Shown here: in pieces, positions 3,942 to 61,912 of the stretch
Layout of the letters: the number at the start of each line of letters is the position of its first letter
How positions within the stretch are numbered: position 1 is the first letter of the stretch
Assembly (NCBI GenBank): GCA_040384265.1
Contig: JAZKJM010000005.1
Location: 115,166-179,165, forward strand
Direction: 5' to 3'
From: Pseudomonadota bacterium
Lineage (GTDB): Bacteria > Pseudomonadota > Alphaproteobacteria > Rickettsiales > UBA3002
Length of the DNA: 64,000 nucleotides
The notes under the pieces: model-generated
Told to the model about the DNA's origin: nothing
Seen by the model: only the letters and a program-made list of their open reading frames with translations
Database searches by the model: none
Position numbers and translations under genes: made by a program

Positions 3942-4110
3942 CAAAATAATAATATTTTTGCACAGAGGATTGACATTTCTGTACACCGCAGCCGCCCTGC
4001 GACAGCATCGCTTCATTTTGACGCGTATTTAATTATTAAGTGGATAGATTTTGCTGGCGCTCCGGGCTTCACAATTAACCATTATCGCCTTTCGACACTA
4101 TCCCCTCGTT

Positions 4111-4183
4111 TTGTCACCCCGGGCCTGTCCCGGGGTCCCGCCGTTCGGCTGGGCCGGATGCCGGGACAAGCCCGGCACGACAA
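4111..4183. repeat. Palindromic element, family A copy 1 (73 bp)
   Basis: Begins TTGTCACCCCGGG and ends with the near-inverse GCCCGGCACGACAA. It contains two hairpins (CCCCGGG/CCCGGGG, and GCCGGG with CCCGGC) separated by a short spacer. Copies of exactly the same length occur at 28562-28634 (inverted) and 47343-47415. Confidence 0.85.
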
Positions 4184-4241
4184 TGGTGGAGGGATTCAGT
4201 TAAGAGCAAATCATAAAGGCGAGGATGTACTTGAAGAAGCC

Positions 4242-6632: not shown

Positions 6633-7850
6633 TTATGCCTTGGGCAATTTGATCCCAAGCGCGGCAGAGAGGCGGTCGCCCTGGCCGTAATAGGAAACGC
6701 GGCGCAGAAAGCGCGGCATGATACCGGTCCATTTAAAGTCACCGACGAGCTTGCCGTCCGGCCCCTCGCCTTTGCTTTGGTAGCTGAAAATATCCTGCAT
6801 CGTGATGATATCCGATTCCATGCCCACCACTTCGGAGACAAACGTCACCCGGCGATGGCCATCACGCATGCGGCTGATCTGGACAATGAGGTGAATCGCC
6901 GATGCAATTTGTGCGCGGATGGCCTGGTGCGGCAGGTTGAGGTTCGCCATCGTAATCATGTTCTCAAGCCGTGCCAGCGCATCGCGCGGGTGGTTGGCGT
7001 GGATGGTAGTGATCGAGCCTTCATGACCGGTGTTCATCGCCTGCATCATATCGAACGCTTCGGGCCCGCGCACCTCGCCGACGAGAATGCGGTCCGGCCG
7101 CATGCGCAGCGCGTTTTTCATCAGGTCGCGCATGGTAACTTCGTCTTCGTTACGATCCGTGCGCACGGGGCGCGTTTCAAGCCGCACCACATGCGGCTGC
7201 TGAAGGCGCAATTCCGCCGCATCCTCGATGGTGACGATGCGCTCCGAGTGATCGATATGTTCCGAAATCGCGTTGAGCAGCGTGGTTTTCCCCGAGCCCG
7301 TACCGCCCGAAATCACGATATTAAGGCGGCAGGCTGCCACCACTTTCAGCAGCTCCGACAGCGACAGCGAGGTGTTGCCCGCCGCATGCATATGGTCGAG
7401 CGTAATCGAGCGCTTGGCGAATTTGCGGATCGAGATCGCCGTGCCATCCACCGCCAGCGGGCGGACGATGACGTTGACGCGGCTGCCATCGGGCAAGCGC
7501 GCATCCAGCAATGGTTTTTGCACACTGACCCGGCGGCCGATATGGCCCGCGATGGCTTCCGCAAGCGCGAACACTTCGTGGTCGTTAGGGAAAGTCAGGT
7601 CGGTTTTTTCAAGCTTCCCACCGCGTTCGATGTAGATATTTTTCGGGCCGTTGATGAGAATATCGTTCACTGAATCGTCATCGAGCAAGGTTCTCAGCGG
7701 GGCCAGCGCCATCAGCGCATCCGACAGCGCGCCGCTCAATTCGGGGGCGAGATATTCCTCGTCCTGCACGGCAGGCGCCGGCTGGGTGCCAGTGAGCTGG
7801 GCAATCTGTTGCTCCAATTGCGTGATGCGGGCGGCGAGGTCTGCGGTCAT
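6633..7850 (-). CDS. CpaF/TadA-type secretion ATPase (paralogue 2)
   Basis: 405 residues of the VirB11/CpaF subgroup of type II/IV secretion ATPases. Walker A is GGTGSGKT at 182-189, Walker B with the Asp/Glu box is RILVGEVRG near 254-262, and the histidine box is [11 protein letters not shown] near 282-292. The short N-terminus begins with a coiled-coil-like [17 protein letters not shown] 7850 is chosen because AGGA lies 6 bases upstream; ATG 7856 is the alternative. It lies 98 bases behind a clear paralogue. No pilin, TadB/C, CpaB/C/E or prepilin peptidase is nearby, so which machine it powers cannot be told. Confidence 0.88.
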
Positions 7851-7948: not shown

Positions 7949-9208
7949 TTAGCGCATTATGCGCATCATTCCCGAAGCGCGTGCTGCATCCGTCACAATC
8001 TGGTTGCGCGGCGAGCTGGTTGCCCAGCGGAAGCCACCCGGACGGCCAGGCGCGGCATCGCTATAGACCACGAGATCCTGCATCACGATAATCTCGCCTT
8101 CCATGCCCGCCACTTCGCTCACAAACATCACGCGGCGAATGCCATCCTTGCAGCGCGCCATGTTGATGATGAGGTTGACGGTGCTGGCAATCTGCTGGCG
8201 CACGAGGCGGATGGGCAGCTGCGGCATGGCGATCGACACCATGGTTTCGAGGCGCGACAGCGCATCGCGCGGGGTGTTGGCGTGCAGGGTCGTCATCGAG
8301 CCATCATGGCCGGTGTTCATGGCTTGCAGCACGTCGAGCGCTTCCGCGCCGCGCGATTCACCCACAATGATGCGGTCCGGCCGCATGCGCAGCGCGTTTT
8401 TCACCAGATCGCGGATCGTCACCGCATTATAGGATTTTTCGCCCAGCATAATTTTGGATTCAAGCCGCACCACATGCGGCTGCTGCAACCGCAATTCGGC
8501 GGAATCCTCGATGGTGACCACCCGCTCATCCGTCGAAATCGAGGACGAGAGCGCGTTCAGCAAGGTCGTTTTACCGGTGCCGGTGCCGCCGCATACAATA
8601 ATATTCATCCGCATCCGCACGCATTCGCTGAGGAATTTAGCCAGTTCCGGCGTTAACTGCCCGGCCTCCACCATGCTTTCGAGCGTAATCTGGCGCACCG
8701 GGAATTTGCGGATGGAAATATTCACCCCATCCACCGCCATCGGCGGCGCGACGATATTGACGCGGCTGCCATCGGGCAAGCGGGTGTCGATCAGCGGGCG
8801 ATCCGCCGAGATTTTCTGGCCGACCGATTTCACAATCGCATCCGCCACCGCCCACACTTCTTCATGCGTGCTGAAGCGCAGGCCGGAATCAACCAGTTTG
8901 CCATGCAAATCGATATAGATACTATGGATGCCGTTGACGAGAATATCGCCCACCGCATCGTCGTTCATGAAGCGGTCAAGCAGGCCCAGGCTCGGCATTT
9001 CATCGGGCATGATTTTTTTGCGCGGCACGGGTGCCGGTTCCGGCGGGAAGCGTTTTTGCTCCTGGCCGTTCATATCAAGCGACACCGCGGCAATGCTGGA
9101 TGACGAAGAAAAATGAGCGCCCGGTTCCAGTTCGGATAGCGGCGCAGTGCCTTCTGGCAGCCATTCGGCTGCATCGTCACGCACAAGGGAAGCTGATGTC
9201 ATATCCAT
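7949..9208 (-). CDS. CpaF/TadA-type secretion ATPase (paralogue 1)
   Basis: 419 residues. Walker A is GGTGTGKT at 207-214. The Walker B region reads IIVGESRGAEA, with Ser where the paralogue has Val, and the histidine box is TTLHANTPRDAL. The first 70 residues are low-complexity (a run of five Ser, then Pro/Arg) and unlike paralogue 2, whereas the ATPase cores are closely similar, which suggests an old tandem duplication. AGGA sits about 7 bases before ATG 9208. The gene starts 130 bases after rpoN, on the same strand. Confidence 0.88.
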   Translation of the reverse strand: MDMTSASLVRDDAAEWLPEGTAPLSELEPGAHFSSSSSIAAVSLDMNGQEQKRFPPEPAPVPRKKIMPDEMPSLGLLDRFMNDDAVGDILVNGIHSIYIDLHGKLVDSGLRFSTHEEVWAVADAIVKSVGQKISADRPLIDTRLPDGSRVNIVAPPMAVDGVNISIRKFPVRQITLESMVEAGQLTPELAKFLSECVRMRMNIIVCGGTGTGKTTLLNALSSSISTDERVVTIEDSAELRLQQPHVVRLESKIMLGEKSYNAVTIRDLVKNALRMRPDRIIVGESRGAEALDVLQAMNTGHDGSMTTLHANTPRDALSRLETMVSIAMPQLPIRLVRQQIASTVNLIINMARCKDGIRRVMFVSEVAGMEGEIIVMQDLVVYSDAAPGRPGGFRWATSSPRNQIVTDAARASGMMRIMR

Positions 9209-28382: not shown

Positions 28383-28725
28383 GGGCGTTTCCTTGGGCAT
28401 CGTGAATTTCAATGCCATTCGTTGTAACGAAGACCACGCGAAGCACAAGCAATTAACTGAGGATTTCGGCGGGTTGTAGTGCAGTGCAACATGGATAAAA
28501 ATGTGTCATCACGTGCACAAGTAGCGGCACTCCACAACCAAGGGAGCTCCACTCCCAAAGCTTGTCATGCCGGGCTTGTCCCGGCATCCAGCCCAGCCAC
28601 ATGGCGGGACCCCGGGACAGGCCCGGGGTGACAAAACAGGAATATGACATAAGCGATTATAATAAATAAAAGCAGTCGGGCGCATCAGATGTGTTCATCA
28701 CGACACATCACCCGAGAACTAAAAC
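28383..28725. other. Intergenic region between ftsB and pdhA
   Basis: It contains the leader of the pdh cluster and one inverted copy of the family A palindromic element (28562-28634). I see no gene and no clear promoter hexamers. Confidence 0.5.
28562..28634. repeat. Palindromic element, family A copy 2 (73 bp, inverted)
   Basis: The reverse complement of the family A copies at 4111-4183 and 47343-47415, with the same 73-base length and TTGTCA/TGACAA ends. The central part matches copy 3 most closely (GCCATGTGGCTGGGCTGGAT on the other strand). Confidence 0.85.
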
Positions 28726-47236: not shown

Positions 47237-47342
47237 GGTTTCCCTTCCATTCAAAGTCAGATAGCGGCCATTTCAGCGAAAATTGAGGGCCGCCGTTATG
47301 CCCTATTCAAAAAGCTCTCCAATTGACCTTTCATCCCCCGTT

Positions 47343-47415
47343 TTGTCACCCCGGGCCTGTCCCGGGGTCTGGCCATGTGGCTGGGCTGGATGCCGGGACG
47401 AGCCCGGCATGACAA
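47343..47415. repeat. Palindromic element, family A copy 3 (73 bp)
   Basis: TTGTCACCCCGGG start and CCCGGCATGACAA end, the same 73-base length as the copies at 4111 and 28562. It lies between the convergent ends of the DUF465 gene and htpG. Confidence 0.85.
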
Positions 47416-47444
47416 TAGTGGGGTATTTGACCAACGCACCTAAT

Positions 47445-49369: not shown

Positions 49370-49374
49370 TTTAC

Positions 49375-49449
49375 TGTCACCCCGTCGCATGACGGGGTCC
49401 ATCTTAGCCATCGTAGGAAGGTGGACCCCGTCGTTCGACGGGGGTGACA
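49375..49449. repeat. Palindromic element, family C copy 1 (75 bp)
   Basis: TGTCACCCCGTC start and GACGGGGGTGACA end. It has two hairpins (CCCCGTC/GACGGGG at each end) and inner GGGTCCA/GTGGACCC arms. A close copy is at 56897-56970. Confidence 0.85.
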
Positions 49450-52806: not shown

Positions 52807-54282
52807 TCATAGCAGCCCCGGCTGAGGCCAAGCTGAAGGCCGTTTGCGGGCGCGTAACATAACGATAACAAAAAGAATGCCGCCGGTGATGGCAAGCAGC
52901 CCGCCCATGCCAAAAATGCCGAGCGCGATTTTAATGTCCGGCGCGAGATGCTCGAAACCGCCGGCCGTTTTACGCAGGATGCCGTAGCCGCCGCAATAGG
53001 CCAGCCCGCCGATATGCATGAACTGGCCCGCGCCATAAACAATCGGCTGCCAGAAGGCCAACCGGGTGGCGGCGACAGGTGCATAGCCCACACGCGGCAG
53101 CATCACATAGGCGACGCCCATCAGGGCCTGGGTGATGCCGACGATCATGCCGTGGTAATGGGCCGGAATGGTAACGTTCTGGCCCGAGATCATGAGCCCG
53201 AGTGCGCCACCGGCGAAGAACAGCAACAGCGAAACGATCAGGGCCGACGCATAGGCACTTTTTGCGCTCTTAGCTCCCCCCTTGAGGGGGAGCGGGCATT
53301 GCCCTTGCAATGCCGTGGGGGGCTCTGGGCGCACATCCTGCCCCCCCACCAAATCGCACGCGCGATTTGGCTCCCCCTCAAGGGGGGAGCTACGGTGGTT
53401 GGAAAACAGCGCCGCCGCAACCAGCAGCGCCATGAAGGACGCGCCAAGGCCGCCCAGCTCGATCATGATGCGGGTTTGGAAATAGGTGAAATCGCCCGTA
53501 TCCGAGGGATGTAGGGCGAAGCCGGTGAAGCTGACCAGCGCGCCGCCCACGGTGAACGCAAAGGCCACGGCTGCCCAGCGGCGCTTGGGCAAGGTGCGGC
53601 CCAGCGCTTCCAGCAGCATCAGCCATGCCACCATGACCAGCAGGGTGAAGGCAAACTGCATGATATGGCCGCCAACCCAGAAGAGTTTTTCGTAATGCTC
53701 CACCAGCGGCAACCCGGCGGGCAACGCCCACGCGCCCAGCACATAGCCCGCCAAACCCAGCAGCACCACGAACGACGCCGCCAACCCGCCCAGCTCGATG
53801 GGCCCAAGGGTTACGAGGCGCTTGGGTTGCAGATAGGTGATCACATGCGGCAGCAACGCGACCAGGAGCCCGGCCATCAACAGGCCCAGCGACATCAGGA
53901 ACATGCCGTTATGCAGCACGGGAATGTAATTGCTCTTCACCGGCACCCAGGCATCCAGCGGTGAAAGCGCCATCAGCAGCGTCGCGGTGGCTACGCAGGC
54001 GAAAGCAGCTTTGGGCCAATAGAGCCAGCCGGTGCCGTCGCGCTCCATCACCCAGGCGGCGCCCATGCAGATCATCGCAAAAAACCAGACGAGCACGGAG
54101 AGATCCACATGCACCACCAGCGCGACATCGAAAAATTGCTGGCTTAGCCCCAGCGCCTTCAGCTGCGGCGTGCGTGCGAGCACCGGCACCAGCGAATACA
54201 GCCCCGCCACTGCGATGGCGATGACGCCGAGCCACAGCCAGCGTTCTGGCAAAGAAGTGTGTTTTTTCATGCCGCGCACCAT
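52807..54282 (-). CDS. Divergent haem-copper oxidase subunit I-like membrane protein with an inserted palindromic element
   Basis: 491 residues with about twelve hydrophobic helices. Oxidase-like motifs: HVDLSVLVWFFAM (His58, helix II haem ligand position), FWVGGHIMQFAF (His206, helix VI CuB position) and TIPAHYHGMIVGI (His375/His377, helix X), followed by MGVAYVMLPRVGY as in CcoN-type proteins. The helix VII His-His pair that completes the CuB site is missing. Residues about 297-337, in the loop between two helices, are encoded by a 122-base palindromic element; the frame stays open. An ATG four codons in (54270) is an equally possible start. It is divergent from ctaA. Function uncertain: a cytochrome relative that may not reduce oxygen. 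Confidence 0.7.
   Translation of the reverse strand: MVRGMKKHTSLPERWLWLGVIAIAVAGLYSLVPVLARTPQLKALGLSQQFFDVALVVHVDLSVLVWFFAMICMGAAWVMERDGTGWLYWPKAAFACVATATLLMALSPLDAWVPVKSNYIPVLHNGMFLMSLGLLMAGLLVALLPHVITYLQPKRLVTLGPIELGGLAASFVVLLGLAGYVLGAWALPAGLPLVEHYEKLFWVGGHIMQFAFTLLVMVAWLMLLEALGRTLPKRRWAAVAFAFTVGGALVSFTGFALHPSDTGDFTYFQTRIMIELGGLGASFMALLVAAALFSNHRSSPLEGEPNRACDLVGGQDVRPEPPTALQGQCPLPLKGGAKSAKSAYASALIVSLLLFFAGGALGLMISGQNVTIPAHYHGMIVGITQALMGVAYVMLPRVGYAPVAATRLAFWQPIVYGAGQFMHIGGLAYCGGYGILRKTAGGFEHLAPDIKIALGIFGMGGLLAITGGILFVIVMLRARKRPSAWPQPGLL
53271..53392. repeat. Palindromic element, family F, in frame inside a coding gene (122 bp)
   Basis: Perfect 23-base terminal inverted repeats (TAGCTCCCCCCTTGAGGGGG start) enclose two inner hairpins, GGCATTGC/GCAATGCC and CCAAATCGC/GCGATTTGG, giving a three-leaf fold. 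It encodes about 40 residues (SSPLEGEPNRACDLVGGQ, ending CPLPLKGGA) of the oxidase-like protein without a stop. The layout resembles the Rickettsia palindromic elements found within genes. Confidence 0.9.
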
Positions 54283-54342
54283 AGCGCCGCCGCGCGCGCC
54301 TTCAAGTGTTATAGTCGGGTGCTCTCATTTATTCACACACTC

Positions 54343-54433
54343 CGTCATCCTATGCCTTGAGCATAGGATCTCAGGCCACAACCTCCGTCTGAGCTCGTTG
54401 CCTGAGATCCTGCGATCAAGTCGCAGGATGGCG
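54343..54433. repeat. Palindromic element, family E (91 bp)
   Basis: CGTCATCCTATGC start and GCAGGATGGCG end. Terminal hairpins ATCCTATGC/GCATAGGAT and ATCCTGCGA/TCGCAGGAT; inner GATCTCAGGC and GCCTGAGATC arms. An outer inverted pair GTCGGGTG/CACCCGAC (about 54314 and 54468) flanks it. It lies in the divergent gap between the oxidase-like gene and ctaA. Confidence 0.75.
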
Positions 54434-54511
54434 GTGTATGTGATAGGGCGAAGCATAACACCCGACCATGCCCCCCTTGCCTAACCGGGGGGAGTGCGAT
54501 ATGCCGCCTGC

Positions 54512-56864: not shown

Positions 56865-56896
56865 GCTTTTAGCCCTTTTTGATTGAGTCCACTCCC

Positions 56897-56970
56897 TGTC
56901 ACCCCGTCGCATGACGGGGTCCACCTGTTTGGGGTGGTGAAGATGGACCCCGTCGTTCGACGGGGTGACA
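56897..56970. repeat. Palindromic element, family C copy 2 (74 bp)
   Basis: TGTCACCCCGTC start, CGACGGGGTGACA end; near-identical to the copy at 49375-49449 except for the central spacer. It lies just after hemA. Confidence 0.85.
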
Positions 56971-61140: not shown

Positions 61141-61845
61141 TTAAATCATCGTCGAATCACCGGCCTGCCGCTTCAGCCGGGCGACGCGATTGACATTGCG
61201 CACCAACTGCTTGAGCAGGATATAGAGCAGTGTCGCATTCAGCGTGTGCCACAGGAAATGCGTGCCTATCGGGAACATATCGCACACTTCGCGGTCGATC
61301 GCACGGCAAAACAGCGACACCACACCAATGATCGACGCCAGCAGGAAATGCGACGAGCTGGGCCGCGCTTTGAGATGCAGATGCACCGCGATCACGATCA
61401 GCGCGATCATGCTCGACAGGTAGCCGATCGAATCGTTCAACGCGCGCGGGAATTGGTGAACAAGGATATGCGAGAACCCGACAAAGGCGATAAAGCAAAT
61501 GCCCGCCTGGAAAATGGTGCAGCGGCCAATGCGAAACAGCACGCACCAGAAGTAAATGATGATGAACAGCACAATCGACATGGTGTCGATCAGCTCCGTC
61601 GTCGGCGATGGGAAGGCGTGGAACACTAGCGAATTCACGCCGATGATGAAGGTCAGGAAGGTGAGCGCATGGACATCCACCATCCATTTGCCCTTCAAAT
61701 CCTCGTTGCGGTGATAGTAACGGTAAATCGACACCGCCACGATCATGAACATGAAGGAAGAAAGGACATTCATCGGCTCGGCCGCCGCACCCAGCCCTGC
61801 GCGTTCACAAACCCCATACCAATGCGTCAACGGTGCGGTAACCAT
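61141..61845 (-). CDS. Ceramidase-family (CREST superfamily) membrane protein, copy 2
   Basis: 234 residues with the same motif layout as copy 1: VCERAGLGAAAEPMNVLSSFMF near 13, GVNSLVFHAFPSPTTELIDTMS near 75 (Ser, His, Asp) and VCDMFPIGTHFLWHTLNATLLY near 190 (HxxxH). It is more divergent in between, with more charged loops (YRYYHRNEDLKGKWMVD). The start has no clear ribosome site. Tandem arrangement with copy 1 suggests duplication and perhaps different lipid substrates. Confidence 0.83.
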   Translation of the reverse strand: MVTAPLTHWYGVCERAGLGAAAEPMNVLSSFMFMIVAVSIYRYYHRNEDLKGKWMVDVHALTFLTFIIGVNSLVFHAFPSPTTELIDTMSIVLFIIIYFWCVLFRIGRCTIFQAGICFIAFVGFSHILVHQFPRALNDSIGYLSSMIALIVIAVHLHLKARPSSSHFLLASIIGVVSLFCRAIDREVCDMFPIGTHFLWHTLNATLLYILLKQLVRNVNRVARLKRQAGDSTMI

Positions 61846-61912
61846 AGGCTAACTATAGCAAATTTTTAGGCCTTTGCGCGAAGATTCGGTGCTGCATTGC
61901 GTCAAATATGCG

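Follow-up and report, generated by a model that had tools for sequence, protein, structure and literature searches.

How does a long, perfectly bounded palindrome come to lie within the reading frame of a membrane protein, and what carries such a sequence from place to place? An earlier note on the DNA analysed here (a stretch of 64,000 nt, hereafter the window) had described such a palindrome in an oxidase-like gene and likened it to the Rickettsia palindromic elements (RPE), which are known to lie in frame and whose way of moving is named as a question for the future in their description (PMC2229807). Missing from that note was a larger context: a nuclease-encoding parent, a class of ends that takes in BoxC and whalefall-1, and nuclease units in frame in essential genes. 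We consider it probable (roughly 0.7) that the window element is a MITE-like, non-autonomous copy of a mobile unit whose sole gene encodes DUF559 (PF04480), a Vsr-like PD-(D/E)XK domain. Being bounded by the same ends, that nuclease gene offers a direct and testable candidate mover, and, if the reading is true, a candidate for in-frame palindromic elements in general.

The palindrome and its host gene

The element (53271..53392, 122 bp, in the paired-arm, non-autonomous form) is closed by two arms of 23 nt each, 100% complementary across a 76-nt spacer: the left arm (53271..53293, + strand), which forms a hairpin by itself (GCTCCCCC/GGGGGAGC), and its inverted copy, the right arm (53370..53392, − strand). 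The arm motif occurs only at these two places in the 64,000-nt window (0.00 expected). The predicted fold, with approximate coordinates, consists of a closing stem and three inner hairpins on the + strand: inner hairpin 1 (53295..53314), a middle hairpin (53315..53349) whose stem (GTGGGGGG / CCCCCCAC) contains the candidate triplex third strand of both arms, and inner hairpin 3 (53350..53369). Its folding energy is −96.9 kcal/mol (z = −10.5; none of 200 shuffles did equally well), so that arm comparison and fold together confirm the three-hairpin, 122-bp palindrome with perfect 23-bp ends of the earlier description. Because four of the six frames through the element are free of stops, a readable frame is a built-in property of the element and not a lucky event.

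The host gene (52807..54282, − strand), assigned by Pfam and homologue alignment to a COX1-like membrane protein of 491 aa (PF00115, 40.2 bits; cut-off 34.8), reads through the whole palindrome without a stop, as had been claimed. The insert corresponds to about residues 297–337 and is flanked by two hydrophobic segments (judged by eye). Homologues of the gene are present in 45 of the 56 genomes of our comparison set (the window's own genome, G000, included); among the 29 homologous loci returned from other genomes, one (L063) stops short of the site, and all 28 that cover it lack the insert, each being ~37–44 (mostly 39–40) residues shorter while aligning on both sides of the insertion site. 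The palindrome in the COX1-like gene is therefore a frame-keeping insertion, the gain of ~40 residues in a loop stands, and homologues carrying the residues but lacking the palindrome, the finding that might have overturned the claim, did not appear. The homologue alignment that had been proposed as a check establishes the insertion itself but not its exact boundary, which cannot be fixed because 122 is not divisible by 3 and homologues differ by a few residues in the adjacent loop. An imperfect palindrome (54333–54443; 53-nt arms, 77% complementary, 5 nt apart) lies just upstream of the host gene.

A nuclease-bearing unit with the same ends

A search of the organism's own genome returned four full or nearly full copies (100, 88, 83 and 83% identity, the first being the window copy) and two paired-arm units, so the prediction of further copies was borne out by three full ones at 83–88% identity plus the two units. 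One of the units (G000:C5:62871-63304, 434 bp) encloses between its arms a DUF559 gene (G000:C5:62923-63240, E = 3.4 × 10−38), and positions 70–122 and 72–122 of the window element are ~92% identical to those arms over 52 bp; a 149-bp form that lacks the nuclease gene lies at G000:C3:149603-149751. The ends of the window element are thus homologous to those of the nuclease-bearing unit, which establishes a family link at the level of sequence, and since its 122 bp leave no room for DUF559, the element can only be a non-autonomous derivative. Judged by flanking frames, the window copy is the sole one of the six in this genome that apparently interrupts a protein; the other five are apparently intergenic, lying upstream of a UbiH-like gene, purH, pyrB, an ABC-permease-like gene and a gene with a DnaE-like start (names read from the sequence, with no library search behind them). 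Across the 56 genomes, the arm family of the window element was found in 12 and DUF559 in 20 (own included in each), with both in 11 of the 12 arm-family genomes (Fisher P = 1.1 × 10−5, a test that is partly circular because an arm match may itself belong to a DUF559 unit).

Insertion into conserved proteins recurs among relatives. In a survey of the short form (19 distinct paired-arm copies across 43 loci), 8 of the 19 copies lay in frame within conserved proteins. Besides the COX1-like protein of the window, these were IleRS in three genomes (G011, G017 and G044), ValRS (G041), a 3-hydroxyacyl-CoA dehydrogenase/enoyl-CoA hydratase (G017), the uracil-DNA glycosylase of G003, which is congeneric with the window organism, and a class I LysRS in which the insert is located after the Pfam domain (G013). 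The Pfam scan covered nine of the other spanning frames, the window ORF and the G044 frame having been scanned separately; three of the scanned frames gave no Pfam match.

The nuclease unit itself is also found in frame. Twenty of the 30 DUF559 matches were re-fetched, chosen mainly for long open frames, and 15 of these had host sequence on both sides of an in-frame DUF559: IleRS (nine times), DnaE (twice), PriA, RdgB, Sua5 and TlyA (counted as two-sided, with no coordinates given for the second host stretch). A tenth IleRS case was truncated by a contig end, and the remaining four were one-sided or undecided (a glutamate-synthase-like protein, a CCA-transferase, the N-terminal side of GltB and one case with no named host). 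In total, IleRS carries DUF559 in 10 of the 56 genomes, and the IleRS of G044 carries both forms at once, the short one and the nuclease-bearing one. No intein family was among the matches listed for these frames (20 DUF559 frames against NCBIfam, eight against Pfam, E up to 0.001).

Homing endonucleases and inteins are small nucleases that occupy conserved essential genes, and the DUF559 units resemble them in their choice of such genes and in recurring at shared sites from one genome to another (IleRS, DnaE). They differ in having no splicing domain, so that the insert remains in the protein and nuclease domains are carried within IleRS, DnaE and PriA, in being bounded by inverted palindromes, and in a nuclease tree that does not follow insertion site (sites are intermixed in this weakly supported DUF559 tree). 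With G001 as the reference, the IleRS site at residue ~268 holds nuclease units in G006, G011, G023 and G041 and short copies in G044 and G017, and the site at residue 382/384 holds nuclease units in G003, G005, G010 and G012, with one nearby in G031. The second IleRS site also holds GNAT-like domains (G006, G017, G039 and G028), and in the IleRS of G013 (L327) the same loop bears an unrelated in-frame palindrome family, translated HSREGGNPD...RLRGDD. Because unrelated inserts share this second site, a permissive loop accounts for the recurrence, and site-locked homing was rejected. Inserts resembling GNAT acetyltransferases were seen in that IleRS loop at four loci (L288, L025, L328 and L330), with a Pfam match at L025 only and the others read from the sequence.

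DUF559 units across phyla and the class of their ends

To look beyond the order, we scanned named bacterial genomes and took the best 80 of at least 573 DUF559 loci, which came from proteobacteria, Chloroflexi, Planctomycetes, Nitrospirae, Melainabacteria and others; 77 had enough flank for analysis. Inverted-repeat arms (score ≥16) bracketed DUF559 at 47 of the 77 loci, compared with 1 of 288 control intervals of the same loci, and 30 of the 77 missed the threshold. Two listed entries, one made of runs of N (L145) and one of poly-C at a contig end (L147), are artefacts. DUF559 was located within a frame of ≥300 aa at 11 of the best 80 named loci, a set in which at least one locus (L194) is from the order itself; beyond the order, most DUF559 units sit in short frames. 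On a Sphingomonas parapaucimobilis plasmid (L126), a DUF559 gene lies between sufB and sufC. Compared with PDB, the DUF559 profile matched 3hrl ('Endonuclease-Like Protein', 5.8 × 10−38) and 3r3p ('Mobile intron protein', 3.5 × 10−5), the latter of which we take to be a homing endonuclease. Profile comparison has also tied YcjD to Vsr (PMC1189080). In our alignment of DUF559 proteins, D45, E56 and D58 (alignment numbering) are conserved. Among the papers listed by full-text searches of largely open-access journal literature, none links DUF559 to palindromes of this kind.

The arms of the DUF559 units are C/T-rich hairpins, and a mirrored purine stretch that could serve as a third strand (score ≥0.9) accompanied 37 of 77 hairpins on the gene side and 5 of the 77 on their outer side (54 and 29 of 77, respectively, at a score of ≥0.7). 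Each arm of the window element scored 0.88 (7 of 8 positions), in a range where outer-side controls reached ≥0.8 in 17 of 77. In layout, as far as sequence comparison goes, the arms resemble the BoxC/PIT/TM(ECO) intrastrand-triplex repeats of Holder et al. 2015 (PMC4666352), in which a mirrored third strand of purines comes after a G/C-rich hairpin, motifs are often paired in inverted orientation, and high copy number goes with a tie to genome variability. The window element departs from that description in its extra hairpin ahead of the candidate third strand (the second loop of each arm holds a hairpin and is longer than the 1–6-nt loops of the ITxF search), in its intragenic, in-frame position, the E. 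coli K-12 motif being reported as always intergenic, and in its family link to DUF559, neither DUF559 nor ycjD being named in the main text of PMC4666352, which reports having found the triplex repeats unassociated with high-mobility elements. At E. coli K-12 ycjD, itself a DUF559 gene, BoxC-like repeats lie at the 3′ side only (L124 2700-2925).

A second likeness is to an orphan Rfam RNA. Both arms of the window element aligned over the whole whalefall-1 model (RF01762; 53340..53393, − strand, 21.7 bits; 53271–53324, + strand, 17.8 bits), with scores under the gathering score of 37 bits, and neither is counted as a member. Matches at E ≤ 0.001 were found in 13 of the 56 genomes, over the cut-off in 6, and in none of 14 control genomes. 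A second DUF559 gene of the window's own genome (L119) is bracketed by an inverted whalefall-1 pair (C7:61388-61442, 38.3 bits; 61803-61856, 31.8 bits), as is the DUF559 gene of G019 (inverted, 28.1 and 39.1 bits); other matches have no DUF559 match adjoining them, among them a solitary one over the cut-off at G000:C5:341492-341546 (L336, 38.6 bits), and DUF559 was matched nowhere in three of the 13 genomes (G004, G013 and G035). Two successive hairpins with a G-rich tail are common to whalefall-1 and the window arms, but the former is classed as an sRNA in Rfam and the latter form the end of a DNA element. We conclude that whalefall-1 is at least partly the end of DUF559 units, with additional solitary copies, and the RF01762 entry may describe the end of a mobile element instead of an sRNA.

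The triplex repeats of BoxC/PIT type and the orphan sRNA of Rfam, usually treated as separate puzzles, may thereby share a common identity. We lean, at slightly better than even odds, towards a widespread transposase-free class of mobile units in which a Vsr-like DUF559 gene lies between triplex-prone palindromes and gives rise to short copies, with ends that correspond to BoxC/PIT and whalefall-1, and which in one alphaproteobacterial order is translated unspliced within essential proteins.

Possible movement of the units and alternative explanations

Comparisons among relatives bear on whether the units move. In Sinorhizobium, a unit lies between two genes that adjoin each other in Shinella. 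At one Mesorhizobium site, several genomes carry full units, another has a short form that lacks DUF559 (G084), a further one has a single hairpin (G076), and still others have different hairpins (G094 and G099); because another hairpin is often present, the unit-less Mesorhizobium sites are not clean empty sites. A ~155-bp stretch of the Mesorhizobium unit has dispersed copies, at 90–97% identity, in at least 28 of 61 genomes. On Azospirillum plasmids, the unit was covered in all seven records covering the locus. Presence or absence of E. coli ycjD was rejected as a measure of unit mobility: in three low-coverage strains (H70, H74 and H76) an efflux operon adjoins fabI, which makes the absence of ycjD uninformative about the unit.

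That the short copies are moved by the nuclease is our inference. Full units would supply the DUF559 nuclease in trans; the nuclease would recognise the arms when extruded as hairpins or triplexes; and cutting followed by repair would start the copying of arms into new sites. With stops absent from most of its frames, the element could survive selection where it enters a surface loop and leaves the host frame intact, as with the ~40 residues in the oxidase-like loop here.

The alternative that survives best, although we judge it unlikely, is that palindromes spread alone or through host functions (replication slippage, quasi-palindrome template switching or recombination), with DUF559 as a passenger or a tied repair enzyme. 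Across 55 DUF559 units, direct matches of at least 3 flanking bases were seen in 12 (permuted mean 9.8), so that no target-site duplication was detectable and the units bear no signature of ordinary transposition, as spread by host functions would have it. Inverted complementarity of at least 4 bases beyond the arms was in excess (15 of the 55 units; permuted mean 3.6), as template switching would predict, but the excess may only reflect arms trimmed too short by our script, the arms used in some units not being the outermost ones. Some genomes with palindromes have no DUF559 match (for the window's arm family, 1 of 12, G013), which fits independent spread but may stem from incomplete assemblies or from old copies that outlived their nuclease. 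The proposal that Caulobacter VsrA, with its DUF559 domain, is a mismatch-repair nuclease (PMC12907096) points to repair as another possible function of DUF559, which would suit a tied repair enzyme and count against a mobile unit. Host-driven spread accounts poorly, however, for arms that bracket DUF559 genes of unrelated phyla and for a nuclease unit that itself lies in frame in many different proteins, and we therefore prefer the DUF559-bearing mobile unit.

That the element is an RPE, or a different MITE for which a classical transposase (for example, of IS630 type at TA sites) is the mover, is distinctly improbable. TA stands at the start of all four full copies in the window's own genome and at the listed end of three, with that of the fourth just beyond the listed boundary. 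A TA target-site duplication was considered, the window copy having TA at both ends and a 2-bp duplication implying a net gain of 120 bp, or exactly 40 codons, but it was rejected, there being no duplication signal over the 55 DUF559 units; moreover, the gene that lies between these arms is DUF559. The element does share with RPE (105–146 bp, with terminal inverted repeats; PMC2229807) its size, inverted repeats (122 bp, 23-bp arms), open frames and in-frame coding within conserved genes. RPE are compared here by description, and they were described from Rickettsia, the present host being another alphaproteobacterium; the text available of PMC2229807 mentions no nuclease-encoding parent. By analogy, then, the element behaves like an RPE: the selfish coding behaviour proposed in the earlier note held up (homologues free of the insert, further copies, 8 of the 19 paired-arm copies in frame), and membership of the RPE family was not established. 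The ERIC/RU sequences, small mobile sequences of enterobacteria, are likewise small inverted-repeat elements that can be intragenic with open frames (PMC2759123), but, compared by description, they have other hosts, and the description available mentions no link to DUF559.

An accidental in-frame reading, with the host ORF being a pseudogene or the product of misassembly, is very hard to credit: with four of six element frames open a single in-frame case is weak evidence, but the ORF is full-length and aligned on both flanks with 28 homologues, and seven other in-frame cases occur in relatives, with IleRS and ValRS among the conserved enzymes affected.

Other repeats were seen in the window. 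A dispersed family of 87 nt (GTCACCCCGGGCCTGTCCCGGGG type) occurs at 4103–4189, 28554–28640 and 47335–47421, with 67–89% identity to the reference copy; a duplicated stretch (6904–7510 and 8187–8793, at a spacing of 1283) is made up of pieces that are 75–87% identical; and a 31-nt repeat, 97% identical, occupies 49374–49404 and 56896–56926.
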